Origin: a virus
IMG/VR virus record: IMGVR_UViG_3300035698_006131
Coordinates: 1-25,015 of that record
DNA: 25,015 nt
Reading direction: 5' to 3' (one strand)
Position 1 is the first letter of the stretch, and the number at the start of each line of letters is the position of its first letter. The notes below the pieces were generated by a model that saw nothing but the letters and a program-made list of their open reading frames with translations, was not told the origin of the DNA and searched no databases. Below, piece after piece: positions 2,211 through 23,779 of this stretch. Both the position numbers and the translations under genes were made by a program.

Positions 2211-2278
2211 TGTATGAAAAAAATACTAGTCGCATGTATGAAAAAAATACTAGTCGCATGTATGAAAAAAATACTAGT
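2211..2278. repeat. Three tandem 24-base repeats (iteron-like)
   Basis: The unit begins TGTATG, has a run of seven A, then TACTAGT and CGCA. Copies lie at 2211-2234, 2235-2258 and 2259-2278 (the last is four bases short). They are essentially identical and lie tail-to-head without spacers, overlapping the stop codon of the 2274-3161 gene. Iterons of about 17-24 bases next to their Rep gene are typical of theta-replicating plasmids and some phages. Confidence 0.75.
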
Positions 2279-3161
2279 CATTCCCTTGTAATGTTTTTAA
2301 ACGGTCATTACTTTTAGTCAATTCTTTCTTCTTTGTATCATCATAATTTACCAAACGTTTCATCTCATTTTCAGTAGGAGTATATGTTCTCCACTTATCG
2401 GATTTGGTAATTCTCATTGGTGTACGATATTTTGGTTTCCAAGTATGATGAGTCTTAAAGAAGCCATGATCTATCAATTCAGTGCGAGCCTTTTTGAAGG
2501 TAGATATTGCTATCATCTCATCACAATTTCTGAATGAATATTCCATCCCTTTGTTTGCGATTGATATTGGATAGTTTTGAGAATCGTTGACCCACTTTTC
2601 CCATGCATCCCAATACATCAATCTGGCAGATTTGGTCAGCGTCTTATATGCGAGACATCTCTTGGCATCTCTATGCATTTTAACCCATTTGAATTGTTCA
2701 GCTTCCGTATTACCAAACTCTCCATCATCTAATTCTGTTGGGTCTGTTCTCTTCTTTTGTTTAGGTACTACTCCATATATAGCATCAAGTAAGTCTGGGC
2801 GTTTTTCTCTAAGCTGCGTCTTTATTTTAGTCGGTAATATAACTTCAAACTTATCCTTTGGGTCAAACGTCATTATATCTGGAGCCACATATTGTAAAAA
2901 CATAAGAGAAGATATTCTATCACAATTTATATCAATTTGTGTGGCTGATGATACAGCTTCTTTCTTTAATGCGTGTAAGTATTGGACTTCTTTATGAATC
3001 ATTTGTGGGGTGATAGATGTAAGAGTCATTCTTTTGTTAACCAGTGTTACAGGTTTTTCAACTTGTGGTAATGATTCTTCTCTTGTAAATGGACATGGCA
3101 CATTGAATGCTTTATAAATGTCTTCTACTGACTTTTCAGGTGGGTCTAATATTGCGTTCAT
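2274..3161 (-). CDS. Putative winged-helix replication initiation protein (295 aa)
   Basis: ATG at 3161 has AGGAG about eight bases upstream. The central part (about residues 165-245) reads as a helix-rich winged-helix region: TLTKSARLMYWDAWEKW, then YSFRNCDEMIAISTFKKARTELIDHGFF is cut across a helix-turn-helix, close to the pattern of phage replisome-organiser and Rep-type proteins in which a helix-turn-helix ends in ELxxxGFF. The N-terminal 60 residues look disordered and the C-terminus is basic. It is flanked by a structured leader (3162-3444) and by iteron-like repeats at its 3' end, which supports a replication role. It could instead be a transcription regulator. The family is inferred from pattern only. 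Confidence 0.6.
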   Translation of the reverse strand: MNAILDPPEKSVEDIYKAFNVPCPFTREESLPQVEKPVTLVNKRMTLTSITPQMIHKEVQYLHALKKEAVSSATQIDINCDRISSLMFLQYVAPDIMTFDPKDKFEVILPTKIKTQLREKRPDLLDAIYGVVPKQKKRTDPTELDDGEFGNTEAEQFKWVKMHRDAKRCLAYKTLTKSARLMYWDAWEKWVNDSQNYPISIANKGMEYSFRNCDEMIAISTFKKARTELIDHGFFKTHHTWKPKYRTPMRITKSDKWRTYTPTENEMKRLVNYDDTKKKELTKSNDRLKTLQGND

Positions 3162-7435: not shown

Positions 7436-8434
7436 CTATGTCTGCTTCAGAATGAAGAGAGCACTACCATCACTAATCAGTTGTGTATAATAGGCCGAAT
7501 TTATCATCACATCAGCACCATCGTCTGTATAGATATTTCCTGTTCCATGCTTTATTGTGATTGTGTGTCCACCTACAGCACGTAAGAAAACTATATCACC
7601 CGCTGAAGTTCCAGAGATGGTATCTAAATCATCCGTAGTGCCAGTTTCAGCTTGAAGTCTACAAAAGGTCTGATTGACTGTGGCAACACCACTTGCAAGT
7701 GCAAAAGTTGTAATGGTTCCAACATTCAGAAAACCTGAAACACCAACATCACCCGCAACACTCAAGTCTCCAGCCATTGCAATAGCATTAGTGGCACGAG
7801 TAATTATTAAAGGAAAACCTACCGGTGCACCAGCATCATCAAAACTGATAAGAGCACAATCACTTCCTGCATTAGCACCAGTTTCCGCAGTGTCATTTAT
7901 AACCCATGCAAATCTAGCAAGTAATCCTGTGGTGAGTTTGACTCCTCTTATACTACCAGCAGCACCATTAATATAAAGTGATCCATCTCCAACACCATCA
8001 CCGCAAGTGATATCACCTGTAGTTGTCACTGTTGTTAGTGTTGTTGAACCATCTTCAATATTGTCAATGTCACTTTGTGCGGTAGTCATTTCCGTTTGTA
8101 ATATGTCAATGTCATCTTCTGCATCATTGACAGCATCTTGTAGTTCTTCCATGTGTTCGGAAGTGTCATATAGTTCTACTGCATCTCCTGAGTCATGCCC
8201 ACCTGCAAGTGTATTTTGTGCACCTCTTTCTGATATAGTAAATGTATCATCACTACGATCTTCTATTTCAATGATCTCGTTATTTATAGTCACCCAAAAT
8301 GGAGCAGACGTAGCATCTGTTTCTGGAAAGTTATCTCCCTCTCCATCCAAATCAAACGTCATTGAAGTTGAATCTAAGGCCGCATCCAATACGCCATTTG
8401 AGTTGTTAGCAGTCAGATGAAAAAGGGTTGTCAT
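7436..8434 (-). CDS. Trimeric fibre-like tail protein (332 aa)
   Basis: ATG at 8434 overlaps the TAA of the distal tail protein gene and has GGGAG upstream. Residues about 1-90 form an N-terminal beta domain (WVTINNEIIEIEDRSDDTFT, then ERGAQNTLAGGHDSGDAVEL), typical of fibre proteins that dock on the tail. Residues about 92-128 are a short coiled coil (MEELQDAVNDAEDDIDILQT). The rest is a repetitive beta region rich in G, T, A and D, ending in a compact domain (GDIVFLRAVGGHTITIKHGTGNI) often found at fibre C-termini. Likely role: tail tip fibre or side fibre. Confidence 0.7.
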   Translation of the reverse strand: MTTLFHLTANNSNGVLDAALDSTSMTFDLDGEGDNFPETDATSAPFWVTINNEIIEIEDRSDDTFTISERGAQNTLAGGHDSGDAVELYDTSEHMEELQDAVNDAEDDIDILQTEMTTAQSDIDNIEDGSTTLTTVTTTGDITCGDGVGDGSLYINGAAGSIRGVKLTTGLLARFAWVINDTAETGANAGSDCALISFDDAGAPVGFPLIITRATNAIAMAGDLSVAGDVGVSGFLNVGTITTFALASGVATVNQTFCRLQAETGTTDDLDTISGTSAGDIVFLRAVGGHTITIKHGTGNIYTDDGADVMINSAYYTQLISDGSALFILKQT

Positions 8435-9228
8435 TATAAATATCTCCCGTAGTAAGTCATAGCGATTTGTCCAGTGAAATTAGTCACTGTCATAATATTT
8501 GTTCGCCCACAAAGTAAACGGGGGAAGGTACCTGAAACATTTGCCATACTGACAGTATATGAAGCTCCAGAGTCTATTGATGTAACTACACCCCATGCGG
8601 TACCACTAATGATCAACCAGACCCCAAGGTGTAGTGTACTTGCCCAAGTGAATGAGGTAGAAAGTGTTTCATTTACAATTGTGATATTAGAACTCTGTGC
8701 TGTAGGAATGAGTATCCAAGTAGGCAAGGAATATGTGTTTCCATCTAAGATATTGCTAGTTGAATCAACGTCAAATGAAGTAGGTGAAGCTGGTATTGAA
8801 AATAGGTCCGGTTCATTAAATGTAGTTGAGAAGGCTACAGGGTCCGCTGCTACGAATTGAAGAGTCACTTGTGCTTTGTAACTGCCCAAAAGTGTAACAG
8901 CTTCTAAGCCTCCTGTATAACGAGCAGTCCACCATCTAGCAGGATACCAGTCATCAAAACGTAACGACTTGTCTGTCTGCGCATGGAAGAGAAGAGTCAA
9001 GTTATCTAAGCATGTAGTCAAGTGTGTAGCTGACGTTGAATCAATCAAACACTCCACGCTAAATGCTTTTGGGTTTGTGCCCATGTATTGTGCGACTCCT
9101 GACGTAAACGGAATCGCTTGTACATCGACATTTACAGTGCTATATGCACCAATGTGTTGTTTAAGTATGGTAAGTGAGTAGGCTGTCGTAGAGAGGTCAG
9201 TCCCATCATAGTGTAGTGAATTAGCCAT
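8434..9228 (-). CDS. Distal tail protein (Dit) (264 aa)
   Basis: The start (MANSLHYDGTDLSTTAYSLTILK) is typical of Dit proteins. The internal pattern RFDDWYPARWWTARYTGG, then LLGSYKAQVTLQFVAADPVA, is the conserved end of the N-terminal ring-forming domain. The C-terminal half is a beta domain (galectin-like in known Dit proteins). Dit joins the tail tube to the tip complex. The gene lies directly after the tape measure gene with a TAATG overlap and before the fibre and hub genes, the classic order. Confidence 0.8.
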   Translation of the reverse strand: MANSLHYDGTDLSTTAYSLTILKQHIGAYSTVNVDVQAIPFTSGVAQYMGTNPKAFSVECLIDSTSATHLTTCLDNLTLLFHAQTDKSLRFDDWYPARWWTARYTGGLEAVTLLGSYKAQVTLQFVAADPVAFSTTFNEPDLFSIPASPTSFDVDSTSNILDGNTYSLPTWILIPTAQSSNITIVNETLSTSFTWASTLHLGVWLIISGTAWGVVTSIDSGASYTVSMANVSGTFPRLLCGRTNIMTVTNFTGQIAMTYYGRYL

Positions 9229-11123
9229 TATACAGTAGCTCCTCTCATTCTCAATTTGAAGTTAAGCAGTTCTCCAATTTCGTTTGATATTTGTTGTGCT
9301 GATTTATCAACACCATTAACAACTACATTGAAGGTTTGGGTAACTGATCCTCTATCTGCTCTAAGCATATCCATAGTATCATTATTATCAAACACTTTAC
9401 TACCAGTTGGCATTGATACAAGTTCTGGACCTTCTTCACCAACTAATGACATTCCACCTTTCCACCAGTTAGTACCTCTGGCATTTCCTGGAGGATCATC
9501 TTCACTATCACCACCCCAAAGCCAATCTTTAAATTTATTGAGATCAGTAACTCCATTCCTCATATCCTGTATCCATTGAAGTAACCGCTTTATAGGGCTG
9601 ATTATTGCCTCAATAGTTGCACTAAAACTTTTCTTTATTCCTACCCAAATTTCAAGGAATGCTTCTTTCCAGCTTTTTGTATTATCCGTTATATTAGTAT
9701 AAATATCTTTAATTGTCCAGGCTATAAATTTATATGGTGCTAATATAATTGCAGCTATTGTGAAAAATGGTACACTAAATGCGGCAATTACCGTCGCAAC
9801 ACCAGTAGAAAATCCTACAATGCTAACTAATATATGTTTGAATATCGCACTGATACCATTTCCTAATCTAACAATGAAAGTTACAAACCTCACTAATTCT
9901 TCAATTGATAAACTAGTTCCATCTGCAAATGATTCCTGTATGTCTGTCCACTTTTCTCTAATATTTTGGACCCATTCGTCAAACTTTTCTCTTATTTTCC
10001 CTGTGAACTCTCTTACTCTCTCTGAGAAGTCTTTAAGTGTTTCACCAGCAGATTTACTTTCTTCTCCTGATTTACCATTTAAATCATTCCAGGATTTTAA
10101 CATTCCATCAACCATACCTACAAAAGCTGCTGATATAAAATAGAATACAATTCTTAATGCATCCCATAATATCCAAAATATATTTGATAATACTTCACCT
10201 GCATTTTTTGTTATAGCTACAATAATTCCCCAATTCTCCGCCCACCACTCACGCCACCCATTAATTGTTTCTTTATTAGGCATCCAATTTGCAAGGACGT
10301 TACCAAGCCAAGTCATGACTTTACCTACTATTTCAGCTATCCAAGTAATTCCAGCAACTATTACTTCTCTATTTTCAACAATAAAATTGGTGATTTTTTC
10401 TAATGCCCAAATTATACCTGGAGCTAATTGTTCAGCAACGGCATACATAATACCATTGAATGATTCTTTCATGTTAGCATATGATTGTGATAAATCATCA
10501 GCTAGTTTGGCACGGGCTGCGGTAAATGTAGTTCCAAACTCATCTGTCTTATTCATGAGTTTTTGCATACCTTCTGCACCTAAATTAAAGAAGGGTAGAA
10601 GTTCAACACCAACGTCACCAAAGATTTTAAGGGATGCACCTGCTTTGGTAAATCCATCTGGAAGTTTAGATAATCCATCACCAACCTTCAAAAATAGATC
10701 ACCAGGAGCTAATGTTTTTAAGTCATTAATTGAAACACCTAATGAATGAAACGTTGCAATTAGAGCTTCATCTCCAGCAATTGCTGAAGCTACATTTGGA
10801 GCAAGTCCATTATATGCACCATATAAAGATTCAATTGATGAACCACTAGCTTCAGCAGCATATCTTAATTTAGATAATGTTTCAGCAGCTATTCCTGTTT
10901 GTTGGGACATCTTCGAAATTTTATCACCAGCTTCAGTAAATTTAAATAATGCTGCCGCAGAGAATGCGTATATTGCTGCTGTCATTGTAGCAATGGCTGC
11001 TGCTGCGATTTTCGCAGCGGTCCCAATCCCAGTTTTTATAGATGATGCTACCTTCCTTAAACCTGACGTGAGTTTATTAGAATTCACACCTAAATTCAAT
11101 ACGGCATCTCCAAGCGAAATCAT
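9228..11123 (-). CDS. Tail tape measure protein (631 aa)
   Basis: The N-terminal part has the tape measure pattern FKTGIGTAAKIAAAAIATMT-like hydrophobic helix, then GDKISKMSQQTGIAAETLSK and LRYAAEASGSSIESL, widely seen in these proteins. Hydrophobic segments occur near residues 36-61, 315-335 and 440-500. The C-terminus has the conserved W-x2-G-x3-VGEEGPELV motif. At about 0.15 nm per residue the 631 residues imply a tail of roughly 95 nm. The start overlaps the end of the -1 frame of the tail chaperone (TAATG), the usual arrangement. No peptidase or transglycosylase domain is visible. Confidence 0.9.
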   Translation of the reverse strand: MISLGDAVLNLGVNSNKLTSGLRKVASSIKTGIGTAAKIAAAAIATMTAAIYAFSAAALFKFTEAGDKISKMSQQTGIAAETLSKLRYAAEASGSSIESLYGAYNGLAPNVASAIAGDEALIATFHSLGVSINDLKTLAPGDLFLKVGDGLSKLPDGFTKAGASLKIFGDVGVELLPFFNLGAEGMQKLMNKTDEFGTTFTAARAKLADDLSQSYANMKESFNGIMYAVAEQLAPGIIWALEKITNFIVENREVIVAGITWIAEIVGKVMTWLGNVLANWMPNKETINGWREWWAENWGIIVAITKNAGEVLSNIFWILWDALRIVFYFISAAFVGMVDGMLKSWNDLNGKSGEESKSAGETLKDFSERVREFTGKIREKFDEWVQNIREKWTDIQESFADGTSLSIEELVRFVTFIVRLGNGISAIFKHILVSIVGFSTGVATVIAAFSVPFFTIAAIILAPYKFIAWTIKDIYTNITDNTKSWKEAFLEIWVGIKKSFSATIEAIISPIKRLLQWIQDMRNGVTDLNKFKDWLWGGDSEDDPPGNARGTNWWKGGMSLVGEEGPELVSMPTGSKVFDNNDTMDMLRADRGSVTQTFNVVVNGVDKSAQQISNEIGELLNFKLRMRGATV

Positions 11124-11760
11124 TATGCTCTCGCAGAACGTCTATTACCCGTATACTTCACTCCAGTTGCTTTAGCGTGTTTAACATCAGCAACAGTTGA
11201 TAAGTTTTTCGGGTCGGACGTTGAAGGAGTACCACCGTTTTGTATACGAATGCGCTCATTTAATTGAGTTATATACATTATGAATATCTCCGGTGTTAAA
11301 GTGTTTATGTAGTCATAGCTCCAGCCGTATTCAGCAGAACATCTTTCAATGAAAGAGAACTCAGATTGAGGCCCATAGTCTTTAAAAAAGGGAGCGACAT
11401 GGATAATACCTCTTTAAAGGCTTCTAACATTTCCATCTCGTCAGCAGTTGATAAAATCTCGTCTTTAGGTAAGGTTTCATCCCAATCAAACACTAGATCA
11501 ATAATATCATCCATATCAGCAAAGAGAAATGTTTTCACCTTCACAAATATTTCAGCCATATCTATTGTCTCAGTCTCTGAAGAAGCCACACCCATCACTT
11601 CTATTACATCTTGAATTTTATTGATGATTGGTAAGGCTTTTTGCTTCCATTTACGTAATTCTAAAAGGTTCTTTGGGTGGAGCTTATAATCCGTTCCACC
11701 CAAAGAAACTATAACTGGCTCACGATTCATTTTTGAAACATTGCTTCTTTCTTCGGTCAT
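11123..11760 (-). CDS. Tail assembly chaperone long form, gpGT-like, made by -1 frameshift (212 aa)
   Basis: Ribosomes that slip back one base at 11383-11389 leave the 151-residue frame after codon 126 and enter a frame that is open down to TAA 11125-11123, giving 126 + 86 = 212 residues. I translated this frame through the region and found no stop. The new C-terminus contains FSFIERCSAEYGWSYDYINT and LTPEIFIMYITQLNERI, strongly like the T domain of tail assembly chaperones (GWxxDxI...LT). The T part binds the tape measure during tail assembly in lambda. The ATG at 11278 with GGAG upstream could also start a 51-residue T-only product. Confidence 0.85.
11305..11760 (-). CDS. Tail assembly chaperone short form, gpG-like (151 aa)
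   Basis: ATG at 11760 has AAGGA eight bases upstream. The protein contains IVSLGGTDYKLHPKNLLELR followed by KWKQKALPIIN, typical of the N-terminal part of tail assembly chaperones that lie between the major tail protein and the tape measure. Helices rich in acidic residues follow (VKTFLFADMDDIIDLVFDWD). It ends at TAA 11307-11305, 75 bases past the slip site. It should be the major product, the long form the minor one. Confidence 0.85.
   Translation of the reverse strand: MTEERSNVSKMNREPVIVSLGGTDYKLHPKNLLELRKWKQKALPIINKIQDVIEVMGVASSETETIDMAEIFVKVKTFLFADMDDIIDLVFDWDETLPKDEILSTADEMEMLEAFKEVLSMSLPFLKTMGLNLSSLSLKDVLLNTAGAMTT
11383..11389 (-). promoter_or_regulatory. Programmed -1 frameshift site (T TTT TTA)
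   Basis: In the zero frame the codons are CCT TTT TTA AAG, so the heptamer T TTT TTA is in register for simultaneous -1 slippage of P- and A-site tRNAs. Downstream small stems are possible (CTCA/TGAG and CTTTCA/TGAAAG) and could stimulate the slip. The -1 frame is open from here to the T-domain end. Confidence 0.85.
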
Positions 11761-11771
11761 ATCAATTTTCC

Positions 11772-12356
11772 TTATGCTGGGTCAGCAGTTAAGTCATAAA
11801 TAGTCATAAGTCTTGCGCCTGCGGCGGAAGTACAATCATTTAGTACTTCAAATTCTACAGGAACGGCTGTATGCTCTACTTGAGTTTCATTAGCAAATGA
11901 ACCACTTGCTACTGCAACAGGAATAACAATAACTCGGTCATTGCCTTCAGGATTGGTTCCAACTAATGCAAGCTGCTTCTCAACGATTGGTCCATCACCA
12001 ACTGTTAATACATCTTGTCCACATTGTGATGCACCCGGAGATACTGCGGTAAGCGTTGAAGCTGAAATGCAATAGTTAAACATTCTCAAATCTTCCTCTG
12101 CTACTGCAAAAGATACCTTGGCGGTTTCACCAGTAAGAATCTTCTTAATATCAGAAAGGAAGCCATTAATTCTAATGCCTTGCATCTCACCTTCGTATTC
12201 AAGCTTAACTGGACCTTCAGTATAACACTGGACCCAGTCCACCCCGAATTCTACTGATCCACCAGTGCAGTCGTCTACCTCAGGTGCAGTAGTAGTCGTA
12301 TCTGCTATATAAACAGTATACGCCTCGCTTAAAATGTTTGCCTTTGTGATTGCCAT
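11772..12356 (-). CDS. Major tail tube protein (194 aa)
   Basis: ATG at 12356 has AGGAG about ten bases upstream. The protein is beta-rich, with the opening AITKANILSEAYTVYIADT, the stretch VQCYTEGPVKLEYEGEMQGI and the ending FEVLNDCTSAAGARLMTIYD. Length, position (after tail terminator, before chaperone and tape measure) and beta composition match a siphophage major tail protein. Assignment rests mostly on gene order. A dyad in the upstream spacer (12378-12395) might affect mRNA stability or expression. Confidence 0.75.
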   Translation of the reverse strand: MAITKANILSEAYTVYIADTTTTAPEVDDCTGGSVEFGVDWVQCYTEGPVKLEYEGEMQGIRINGFLSDIKKILTGETAKVSFAVAEEDLRMFNYCISASTLTAVSPGASQCGQDVLTVGDGPIVEKQLALVGTNPEGNDRVIVIPVAVASGSFANETQVEHTAVPVEFEVLNDCTSAAGARLMTIYDLTADPA

Positions 12357-15723: not shown

Positions 15724-16392
15724 CTAGAAGAGTCTTCTGTTGGCTAGGAGCAAGCTTAATAGTGTTGGATCTATATTATGAGAAGTGAAACTAACTCCTG
15801 ATGGAACTGATCCCTGCTTAACACCTTCAAGTCCAAGTTGTCTATATTTCATCTCAACCAGCATAACAGTGGCATCTTGTAATGATTCATTATCCACATT
15901 ACCTTGCACTTCAGTTGCACCATAAGATGTATTAAGTTTTAAGTTCTGACAGACATGTTTAGTGTCATTGTAGTAACCGACCCTAACCTTAGATATAAGA
16001 CCATATCTGCCAGAAGTAATGGTATATTGTATATTGTCTGAATCATAAGTAACTGTGACTTCATCAAATCCATAGCTATCACTTGCAGCCCTAATCTTAG
16101 TTTGTAGTTCAGTTGCAATGTTATCACCTGTATCACATGCTGATAAATCAATATCTACAGACACTGGTGCGCTATCATTAACTGTTACATATAAGTTGTT
16201 ACTACCAATTGCAGTTATGTCAATAGAGGCGCTTACAGCTGACTTAGCATAGCCTTGTGATAGTTCAGGGTAAGAAGGGTATTTACAAAATAGTGTAACA
16301 AACGCTTTTGCTCTAACTATCAATTCCTCTACGAAGGTTTCATTATATGTACCAATTTCTGGATTAGTTTGAACTCTAGTTAAAATGCTCAT
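15724..16392 (-). CDS. Head-tail connector (gp6-like) with inserted beta domain (222 aa)
   Basis: I prefer ATG at 16392 (MSILTRVQTNPEIG), overlapping the TAA of the previous gene, with AGGGA upstream. Helices at the N-terminus (TFVEELIVRAKAFVTLFCKY) and C-terminus (DATVMLVEMKYRQLGLEG, then GVKQGSVPSGVSFTSH and DPTLLSLLLANRRLF) match gp6-type adaptors that bind under the portal. Between them, residues about 50-160 form a beta domain (NNLYVTVNDSAPVSVDIDLS, then IATELQTKIRA and VTYDSDNIQYTITSGRYGL) with the rhythm of flagellin hook-IN-like repeats. Such connectors are normally about 100-110 residues. Confidence 0.7.
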   Translation of the reverse strand: MSILTRVQTNPEIGTYNETFVEELIVRAKAFVTLFCKYPSYPELSQGYAKSAVSASIDITAIGSNNLYVTVNDSAPVSVDIDLSACDTGDNIATELQTKIRAASDSYGFDEVTVTYDSDNIQYTITSGRYGLISKVRVGYYNDTKHVCQNLKLNTSYGATEVQGNVDNESLQDATVMLVEMKYRQLGLEGVKQGSVPSGVSFTSHNIDPTLLSLLLANRRLF

Positions 16393-17321
16393 TATAGTTT
16401 TCCCTGTGACCTCTTCAATCCAAATGTACTTGAACATTTACGGGAACAGAAGCGGCCACTTCCCATTGTTCCATCATGTTCGCCTCCACATGTTTCACAA
16501 ATGTGGGCTGTGCTTATTTGTTCTTCTTCTTCGATGTTCGGTTTTGGAGTTGAAACTATAATAGGTTCTGCTTTACCTTTACATATATCTAGTTTATCAA
16601 GTCCTGCATTATTTAAATCTACAAGATTTTTATCTATTCGTTGTTGTATGGAATCATTAATCAAAGCCACCTGTTTATCTTGCTCTTTACGCTCTTCTGA
16701 TGCAACATAAGCAAGCTTCTCATTAACGAGAATGTCATCTTCAAATATTTCTTGCCCTGCTACTTCACCAGCATCAGTTCGTCTTTGATATTCAGCATTA
16801 ACATCTTCATCATAATCATCTTCTCTCTGCGCCGTCATCTCCTTATCAACTGCATCAGCAGCATCTTCAACTCCTTGTCTTATTTCAATGACGCGTTCAG
16901 CTTGTTCTAAAATCCACTCATCATATAAATCCCAAATGCTGGCTTCATACTCATCTTTCAACTCATCATAATCCAACGGATTATCTTTTTTAAGTTGTAC
17001 AAGAACCGCAGAAGTATATTCGTCATATTCAATTTGAGATGATACTTCCGCAAAAGATCTAAACTTGCCTTCAATTTTACGTTCATCATATTCCTCTTGA
17101 ACTACTATTTCCCATTCCCCATTGCCGTAATCCTCACGCAAGTATTCAAGTTCAATACGAAGGTCTTTCATTAGATTTGCGTTCAATACTTCGACAGGGA
17201 TTTCAGTTGGACGTTCCTCCAGATAACCCTTCTTGAGGTAGTAAGGGATTGATGCCTTATTGTGTAATACAAATGGCTCGCCAGGGGTTGAACAGTCGAT
17301 GGGATGGTAAATGGTAATCAC
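16392..17321 (-). CDS. Acidic coiled protein with C-terminal zinc finger (309 aa)
   Basis: GTG at 17321 is the start: GGAGG lies seven bases upstream. The N-terminus (YHPIDCSTPGEPFVLHNKAS, then IPYYLKKGYLEERP) resembles short domains found beside capsid genes in other phages. Residues about 70-260 are very acidic and helical with long coiled-coil potential (DELKDEYEASIWDLYDEWIL). The C-terminus holds a zinc finger: CETCGGEHDGTMGSGRFCSR followed by KC, a C-x2-C...C-x3-C pattern with the GSGRFCS signature. It lies just after the capsid gene terminator. Function unknown; a capsid-associated or DNA-binding internal protein is possible. Confidence 0.6.
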   Translation of the reverse strand: MITIYHPIDCSTPGEPFVLHNKASIPYYLKKGYLEERPTEIPVEVLNANLMKDLRIELEYLREDYGNGEWEIVVQEEYDERKIEGKFRSFAEVSSQIEYDEYTSAVLVQLKKDNPLDYDELKDEYEASIWDLYDEWILEQAERVIEIRQGVEDAADAVDKEMTAQREDDYDEDVNAEYQRRTDAGEVAGQEIFEDDILVNEKLAYVASEERKEQDKQVALINDSIQQRIDKNLVDLNNAGLDKLDICKGKAEPIIVSTPKPNIEEEEQISTAHICETCGGEHDGTMGSGRFCSRKCSSTFGLKRSQGKL

Positions 17322-17344: not shown

Positions 17345-17380
17345 AAAAAGAAAAGGGGCCAACTCATATGAGTCAGCCCC
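17345..17380 (-). terminator. Rho-independent terminator after the major capsid gene
   Basis: On the minus strand GGGGCTGACTC and GAGTTGGCCCC form an 11-pair stem (two wobbles) with an ATAT loop, followed by TTTTCTTTTT. It lies 17 bases after the capsid stop and inside the late operon, so it should lower expression of the genes downstream relative to the capsid. Confidence 0.9.
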
Positions 17381-17396
17381 TCAGAATTAGAAACGG

Positions 17397-22661: not shown

Positions 22662-22700
22662 TTACATCCACAAATTCATCCACAAAATTCATCCACAATT
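22662..22700. repeat. Three tandem 13-base repeats with DnaA-box-like core
   Basis: Units lie at 22662-22674, 22675-22687 and 22688-22700. Two carry TCATCCACA and the first ACATCCACA, one or two mismatches from the DnaA box TTATCCACA. They are followed by an almost pure A/T stretch, as in bacterial-type origins. Confidence 0.5.
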
Positions 22701-22704
22701 TTAT

Positions 22705-22822
22705 TTGCCATTCTAAAATTAAAAAATAATCATTTCCAAAAAAAAAATAAAAAAAATAATTTTTCATTTTATTTTTTCATTCCAATTTTATTTCAATCAA
22801 TCATTCATTAATTAATCATTCA
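22705..22822. other. Very A/T-rich tract
   Basis: Long runs of A and T with few other bases, including nearly uninterrupted A/T at about 22735-22780. It could be an easily melted element or a bend. It sits directly beside the 13-base repeats. Confidence 0.6.
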
Positions 22823-22856
22823 TTGACTCATTAGGGAGCGAGGTATCATTTGGAAT

Positions 22857-22878
22857 CCATCCATGGCCTGGTGGATGG
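22857..22878. repeat. Hairpin repeat ATCCATGRCCTRGTGGAT, copy 1
   Basis: CCATCCA and TGGATGG form a perfect seven-pair stem around TGGCCTGG. The 18-base core (22859-22876) recurs at 23018-23035 with two changes. Near it are TGACTCATTAG (22824-22834) and GATAGTGAATAGGT (22940-22953), which are also both found again near copy 2. Confidence 0.5.
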
Positions 22879-23017
22879 TCATCTCACTGATGCCATCCTA
22901 ATGAACCATCCTACAAAAAATGGGTTGATAAATTATGGTGATAGTGAATAGGTGTTCATATGATAATCATCTACAACCTCATCCACAACCTCATCCACCT
23001 CATCATCCATCCATATC

Positions 23018-23035
23018 ATCCATGACCTAGTGGAT
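23018..23035. repeat. Hairpin repeat ATCCATGRCCTRGTGGAT, copy 2
   Basis: ATCCA/TGGAT stem with loop TGACCTAG. TGACTCATTAG (23062-23072) and GATAGTGAATAGGT (23076-23089) follow, so three elements are shared by two blocks but in a different order. Confidence 0.5.
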
Positions 23036-23331
23036 CACACCGGCGGGGGGTGGGTATTGAATGACTCATTAGATGGATAGTGAATAGGTATTAATATTCA
23101 ATCATGTTTAACATCATCCATAACATTCAACTTAAATATTATCATCACTGGGTACCCAGTCATACTTTATCCCTTCATATTACCATTCATATTACCATTC
23201 ATATAATCAACCAAATGTCAACGGTGTGTCGATATTTACTAGTAGAATAGTCATGAACTGCTGGATGGACTGTTGGATGGAAGAGGATGGTTGATAATAT
23301 ATTGTGGATGGACTGCTGGAAGGATTGGTAA

Positions 23332-23544
23332 GTGTATAGTAGCAATGAAGATAAGTATGAACTGTGGATGAATAAGAGGATGGAATACAAATGGGCAATT
23401 ACTGCTCCATACCTAACTTATTGTGAATTCAGCCAAATCACCAAGCTGAATGTTTGCAGTGCGATCAATGACTATTTCAGTGTAGGAATTAGAATTAAAT
23501 TGCTGGATGATGTTGTACATGAATATGGGCCTTATGTTGCTTGA
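23332..23544 (+). CDS. Possible small plus-strand gene (70 aa)
   Basis: GTG at 23332 has AAGGA about eight bases upstream. The protein (MYSSNEDKYELWMNKRMEYK at the start, later EFSQITKLNVCSAINDYFSV) has a normal residue mix, unlike the low-complexity frames around it. It would be the only plus-strand gene in the genome. It is flanked on both sides by ACTGCTGGATGG-type repeats (near 23256, 23311 and 23554), which look like remains of an inserted unit. No family recognised; coding status uncertain. Confidence 0.35.
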   Translation: MYSSNEDKYELWMNKRMEYKWAITAPYLTYCEFSQITKLNVCSAINDYFSVGIRIKLLDDVVHEYGPYVA

Positions 23545-23640
23545 TATCATACAATGAACTGCTGGATGGCTGATAACAGTTAGATACTTTGTGAGAAATG
23601 ACTCTTGCGGCCATGAACAGATGTCATACCAAATATTAAG

Positions 23641-23691
23641 TGTTGCATAATTGCAACATCATCCCTAATCATATGTTGCATAATTGCAACA
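23641..23691. promoter_or_regulatory. Two identical 18-base dyads (operator-like)
   Basis: TGTTGCA-TAAT-TGCAACA occurs at 23641-23658 and again at 23674-23691. The copies are identical and start 33 bases apart, about three helical turns, as for a repressor binding cooperatively. Confidence 0.6.
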
Positions 23692-23743
23692 TACCCATAC
23701 TTCACATCAACATCTATTCACTCCTAACATCATTCCCTACCCT

Positions 23744-23779
23744 CCCGCATTCATTCCCGCATTCATTCCCGCATTCATA
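23744..23779. repeat. Three 12-base tandem repeats (CCCGCATTCATT)
   Basis: Copies at 23744-23755, 23756-23767 and 23768-23779 (last base differs), within a strongly G-poor block. Probably a slippage repeat; possibly a binding array. Confidence 0.6.

Follow-up and report, generated by a model that had tools for sequence, protein, structure and literature searches.

A probable lambda-type G/GT tail assembly chaperone in a siphophage-like virus record

The locus considered here raises the question of whether a short gene, with a tail-tube-like gene on one side and a tape measure gene on the other, yields two products, the longer of them by -1 ribosomal slippage. The G/GT mechanism is textbook knowledge, known since lambda, and is ordinary for tailed phages. 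In the 25,015-nucleotide stretch of virus record IMGVR_UViG_3300035698_006131 that was analysed (the window), the sequence indicates that the locus is very probably a lambda-type G/GT tail assembly chaperone of a siphophage-like phage. That ribosomes slip, how often they do so and what G and T do are inferred; the frames, the register of the slip site, codon use, gene order and the recurrence of the arrangement in distant relatives were read directly.

Gene order and overlapping frames

The late genes of the 25 kb record lie on the minus strand and comprise terminase, portal, capsid, connectors, tail terminator, tail-tube-like, G, T, tape measure, Dit and tail spike-like genes. The zero-frame G ORF (11305..11760, minus; 151 aa) starts at ATG 11760 with the Shine-Dalgarno sequence AAGGA, stops at 11307-11305 and is tail-assembly-chaperone-like by its place in the ORF list between tail-tube-like and tape measure genes. 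Directly upstream of it is the gene of a probable tail tube or major tail protein with an Ig-like domain (11772..12356, minus; phrog_2175, E 5e-9; weakly phrog_885, major tail protein, E 0.03). The 631 aa tape measure protein (9228..11123, minus) was recognised by PHROG tape measure families with E values down to 2e-27 and by tblastn to phage tape measure genes, and its gene is directly followed by that of the distal tail protein Dit (8434..9228, minus; phrog_202, E 4e-11; TIGR01633 above cut-off). The position of G between a major-tail-protein-like gene and a recognised tape measure gene is that required of a lambda-type G/GT locus.

As G/GT also requires, a second ORF in the -1 frame overlaps the 3' end of G and finishes at the tape measure start, and the overlap contains an in-register X XXY YYZ heptamer. 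This heptamer, T TTT TTA (11383..11389, minus), is read directly within CCT TTT TTA AAG (11391-11380, codons 124-127 of G), with TTT codon 125 in the P-site and TTA codon 126 in the A-site, and two further heptamers overlap it. The putative T domain (11126..11383, minus), supported by its open frame, by local pLDDT and by its alignment at the same offset with the T of Acetobacter phage phiAP1, has 86 codons counted from the re-read heptamer base 11383, and its stop TAA (11125-11123) has one base in common with the tape measure ATG (11123-11121). The preliminary description had reported the exact zero-frame register, the 86 open codons beyond the heptamer and the one-base overlap, all of which were reproduced from the minus-strand coordinates, with the -1 frame open from 11383 to 11126. 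Past the slip site the zero frame continues for 25 codons and a stop (11305..11382, minus), a tail limited to the unshifted product with the unique peptides TMGLNLSSLSLK.

By this reading, the majority of ribosomes would complete G (151 aa), and a minority would slip back one base on the U-rich CUC CCU UUU UUA AAG and produce the 212 aa GT, whose first 126 residues are those of G and whose remaining 86 form the T domain. On the lambda model, the tape measure protein would be coated by G and by the G portion of GT, the tail tube protein would be recruited by T, and both G and GT would leave the finished tail. In lambda the tape measure protein is bound by G and the G part of GT and the tube protein by T, and the mechanism is widely conserved despite low sequence similarity (PMC5009743).

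To what extent chance could produce this arrangement was estimated for the 36-codon G/T overlap. Random codons drawn at the usage of this phage placed T TTT TTA in the overlap in 0.7% of trials; an in-register NNNWWWN of any kind arose in 13%, and at least two of them in 1.4%. When the protein was kept and its codons resampled, the corresponding values were 6%, 58% (any in-register heptamer) and 27%, and the heptamer alone is therefore not decisive. The -1 frame opens about 10 codons ahead of the slip site and is unbroken to the next gene, and 85 open codons have a chance probability of about 0.002. Scored by the phage's own codon usage, the T frame beyond the G stop reaches +0.20 bits per codon, against +0.24 for G, and the two other frames there carry 5-6 stops in 59 codons. 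No ATG, GTG or TTG lies in the T frame ahead of ATG 11278, and a start at that codon would remove the first 35 T residues. Taken alone the heptamer is modest evidence; its combination with the open -1 frame, the codon use and the missing full-length start is stronger.

An in-register heptamer followed by a -1 frame open for at least 40 codons was found in two of the 18 window genes tested, G and the gene at 16392-17321. The latter has G GGA AAA in register at 16398-16404 (minus), one codon ahead of its stop, and its -1 frame continues for 224 codons, through the next gene. This heptamer is likely just the Shine-Dalgarno sequence of the next gene (AGGGAAAACTATAATG; it overlaps the SD-like AGGGA) rather than the site of a fusion.

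Several other features of the window were recorded. A strong terminator-like hairpin with a T-rich tail lies just downstream of the major capsid gene (17353-17382, minus), and a perfect tandem repeat of 24 bp x 2.9 (TGTATGAAAAAAATACTAGTCGCA; 2211-2279) adjoins the stop of the gene at 2274-3161. Short tandem repeats of 12-19 bp and A-runs cluster at 22665-23778, a region with few genes that precedes those for terminase and is a possible packaging or origin region.

The slip site and its surroundings

T TTT TTA forms part of a composite run of 13 bases, CCCTTTTTTAAAG (11380..11392, minus), in which C CCT TTT, T TTT TTA and T TTA AAG overlap, all in register. Slippage at either of the neighbouring heptamers, or at a mix of all three instead of solely at T TTT TTA, would be a refinement of G/GT, and we consider it possible but on balance doubtful. 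The overlap of the three sites and the shift-prone behaviour of A_AAG in E. coli (PMC5009743) speak for it; against it, the best re-pairing in both the P- and A-sites belongs to T TTT TTA, and a slip at T TTA AAG would leave the P-site tRNA-Leu mismatched on UUU. Whether the slip falls at T TTT TTA or T TTA AAG, the junction is PFLKDY, and since the protein is the same, sequence alone cannot decide between the two. A slip at C CCT TTT, or Phe entering at the HIV-type site T TTT TTA, would instead give PFFKDY, and the predicted GT junction peptide is PFLKDYGPQSEFSFIER (or PFFKDY...). At the HIV site U_UUU_UUA, 70-80% Leu and 20-30% Phe are incorporated (PMC5009743).

U_UUU_UUA shifts less readily in E. 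coli than A_AAA_AAG does (PMC5009743). A low rate is all that GT requires, and such weaker slipping would fit a low share of it. No paper describing T TTT TTA in a phage tail chaperone was found in a literature search that did not extend to the survey of Xu, Hendrix and Duda (Mol Cell, 2004; cited in PMC5009743), and no first use is claimed.

No stable stimulatory RNA structure was found downstream of the site, where folding was no better than in shuffled sequences (z -0.3 and -0.1). Two upstream candidates were rejected as stimulators. The SD-like AGAGG is separated from the heptamer by about 19 nt, more than the dnaX spacing allows, and an RNA hairpin within G sits about 280 nt upstream, at too great a distance to affect the site. 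The hairpin itself (codons 17-32; 11666-11710, minus) has 16-nt arms that are 94% complementary, a 13-nt loop, a folding energy of -21.5 kcal/mol and z -3.9, and might reduce translation, or transcription, beyond the tube gene.

A more speculative extension, which we regard as unlikely, is that CCCTTTTTTAAAG acts as a composite slippery site giving a mixed junction (PFLKDY and PFFKDY) and that translation of the tape measure gene is partly coupled to slipped ribosomes. Coupling is proposed on the ground that the T stop overlaps the tape measure start, whose own Shine-Dalgarno sequence is weak; if it occurs, the amount of tape measure protein would be tied to that of GT.

The G and T proteins and distant relatives

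Neither G nor T matched Pfam, PHROGs, NCBIfam or PDB sequences. The chaperone class is known for low sequence similarity (PMC5009743), and for this reason a family match is supporting rather than defining for G/GT. The T sequence had been called a typical T domain beforehand, a label for which databases gave no support, the sole match being a weak similarity to the -1 product of phiAP1. This match is ungapped and covers residues 14-42 at the same distance from the slip; 7 of 300 shuffles reach the best score over the set. G resembled the chaperone-position protein of locus L271 weakly around GGTDYxL (6 of 200 shuffles). A profile comparison of GT with other G/T clusters gave no homology and confirmed neither the phiAP1 nor the L271 match.

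A single-sequence model of T predicted helices at residues 8-19, 23-28 and 31-48. Block means of pLDDT were about 70-78 across residues 11-50, the tail was of low confidence, and Foldseek with this model returned no match below E 0.4. The corresponding model of G, a beta-hairpin plus helices, had a mean pLDDT of 45 and was too poor to use. G and T are very probably a divergent chaperone pair of a known kind whose proteins are new in sequence. Family models missed the pair entirely, and it was found only by gene order, frame and slip site.

No close relatives were found when G, T, tape measure and capsid proteins were used as single queries against viral contigs, and tblastn of G and T against phage records returned chance matches only. 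Three other routes were discarded: the terminase query led to 80 loci, none sharing a tail gene; a wide tape measure alignment was too diverse to serve as a query; and Clostridium contig L333, with the longest tape measure match, is cut just upstream and its visible frame is unlike the window T. As no close relative was available, the comparison turned to distant phages with a related tape measure or capsid protein, and a narrower tape measure alignment served as the query in viral and bacterial contigs.

Eleven annotated distant phages were examined, six found by tape measure and five by capsid similarity. In all 11, an in-register heptamer lies near the 3' end of the gene preceding the tape measure gene, and the -1 frame reaches the tape measure start or nearly so (11/11). 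Most of the sites are A AAA AAC/G, others are G GGA AAA/C, and that of phiAP1 is T TTT TTT. A rough survey of 171 tape-measure loci, the window being one of them, drew on phage records as well as on viral and bacterial contigs. An upstream -1 pair was present in 101 of them and about 70 were without a simple -1 pair; A AAA AAC was the commonest single site among the 101 pairs (29), 28 had no listed heptamer, and some pairs were plainly unrelated genes and not G/T. As a control, genes that end just ahead of the tape measure gene were compared with other genes of the same loci: 42 of 139 in the first group and 25 of 1053 in the second have a long -1 frame with a heptamer in the overlap, counts in which related sequences recur and to which no p-value is attached. 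The preliminary proposal of a tail chaperone made by -1 frameshift is supported by gene order, the in-register heptamer close to where the overlap begins, the gene-like -1 frame, the lack of a full-length T start and the distant tape-measure neighbours. Counting against it are the negative searches with family models and for close relatives, the folding result downstream of the site, the lower shift-proneness of U_UUU_UUA in E. coli and the surveyed loci that showed no simple -1 pair or no listed heptamer.

T-like -1 frames that carry no annotation, about 55-60 aa long and preceded by A AAA AAC/G in register, were seen between the chaperone and tape measure genes of Pelagibacter phages (L083, L085, L086 and L087) and of phage DSL-LC06 (L084). 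These five deposited Pelagibacter-type genomes carry the T part without a joined annotation, although site and frame are present.

Very unlikely is the alternative that T is a separate small gene starting at the internal ATG 11278 and encoding a 51-residue protein, with the heptamer incidental. That codon does have a fair Shine-Dalgarno sequence (GGAGAT, CCGGAGATATTCATA) upstream, and the window, being AT-rich, has many runs rich in U or in A. Against this reading, the 35 codons between the slip and ATG 11278 are stop-free in the -1 frame, and the stretch before that ATG (KDYGPQSEFSFIER, CSAEYGW) includes the GWS...L part resembling the phiAP1 T; an internal start would also fall inside the third predicted T helix, and the distant relatives display the junction arrangement instead. 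Least probable of all is that the T frame is an accident, either a chance opening (about 0.002, as above) or a sequencing or assembly indel in the T-run that split one G-T gene, since, frequent as indels are in homopolymer runs and metagenomic contig as this record is, the zero frame stays open and gene-like for 25 codons beyond the site and such phages normally have a two-frame layout with a -1 step ahead of the tape measure gene.

Comparison with known systems

The closest capsid relatives of the predicted G/GT phage, at about 30% identity, are Pelagibacter phages HTVC112P, HTVC111P, HTVC026P and HTVC202P and phage DSL-LC06. Like the window, all five have an in-register heptamer (A AAA AAN) followed by a -1 frame that extends as far as the tape measure gene or almost so, but they belong to another tail lineage, with an A-rich site and a shorter G. 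In Acetobacter phage phiAP1 (LC644972) the chaperone gene likewise precedes that of the tape measure protein, the T-run site (T TTT TTT) is in register, and the T domain aligns with the window T at an equal offset from the slip; the phage differs in carrying a tail sheath gene, its G portion is unlike and the T similarity is weak.

The gpG/gpT of Lactococcus phage TP901-1 is likewise the G/T pair of a siphophage; it precedes the tape measure gene, and mutation has shown its -1 slippage to be necessary (PMC4493119). The TP901-1 slippery site is GGGAAAG (PMC4493119), and the likeness is one of arrangement.

For lambda gpG/gpGT no sequence similarity to the window is claimed, and the window differs in its U-rich site and in a slip 25 codons before the G stop; the lambda slippery site is G GGA AAG. 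The order tube, G, T, tape measure is common to both, and in both T lies in the -1 frame of G with the heptamer near the 3' end of G and the end of T overlaps the start of the tape measure gene (for lambda, in part from PMC5009743).
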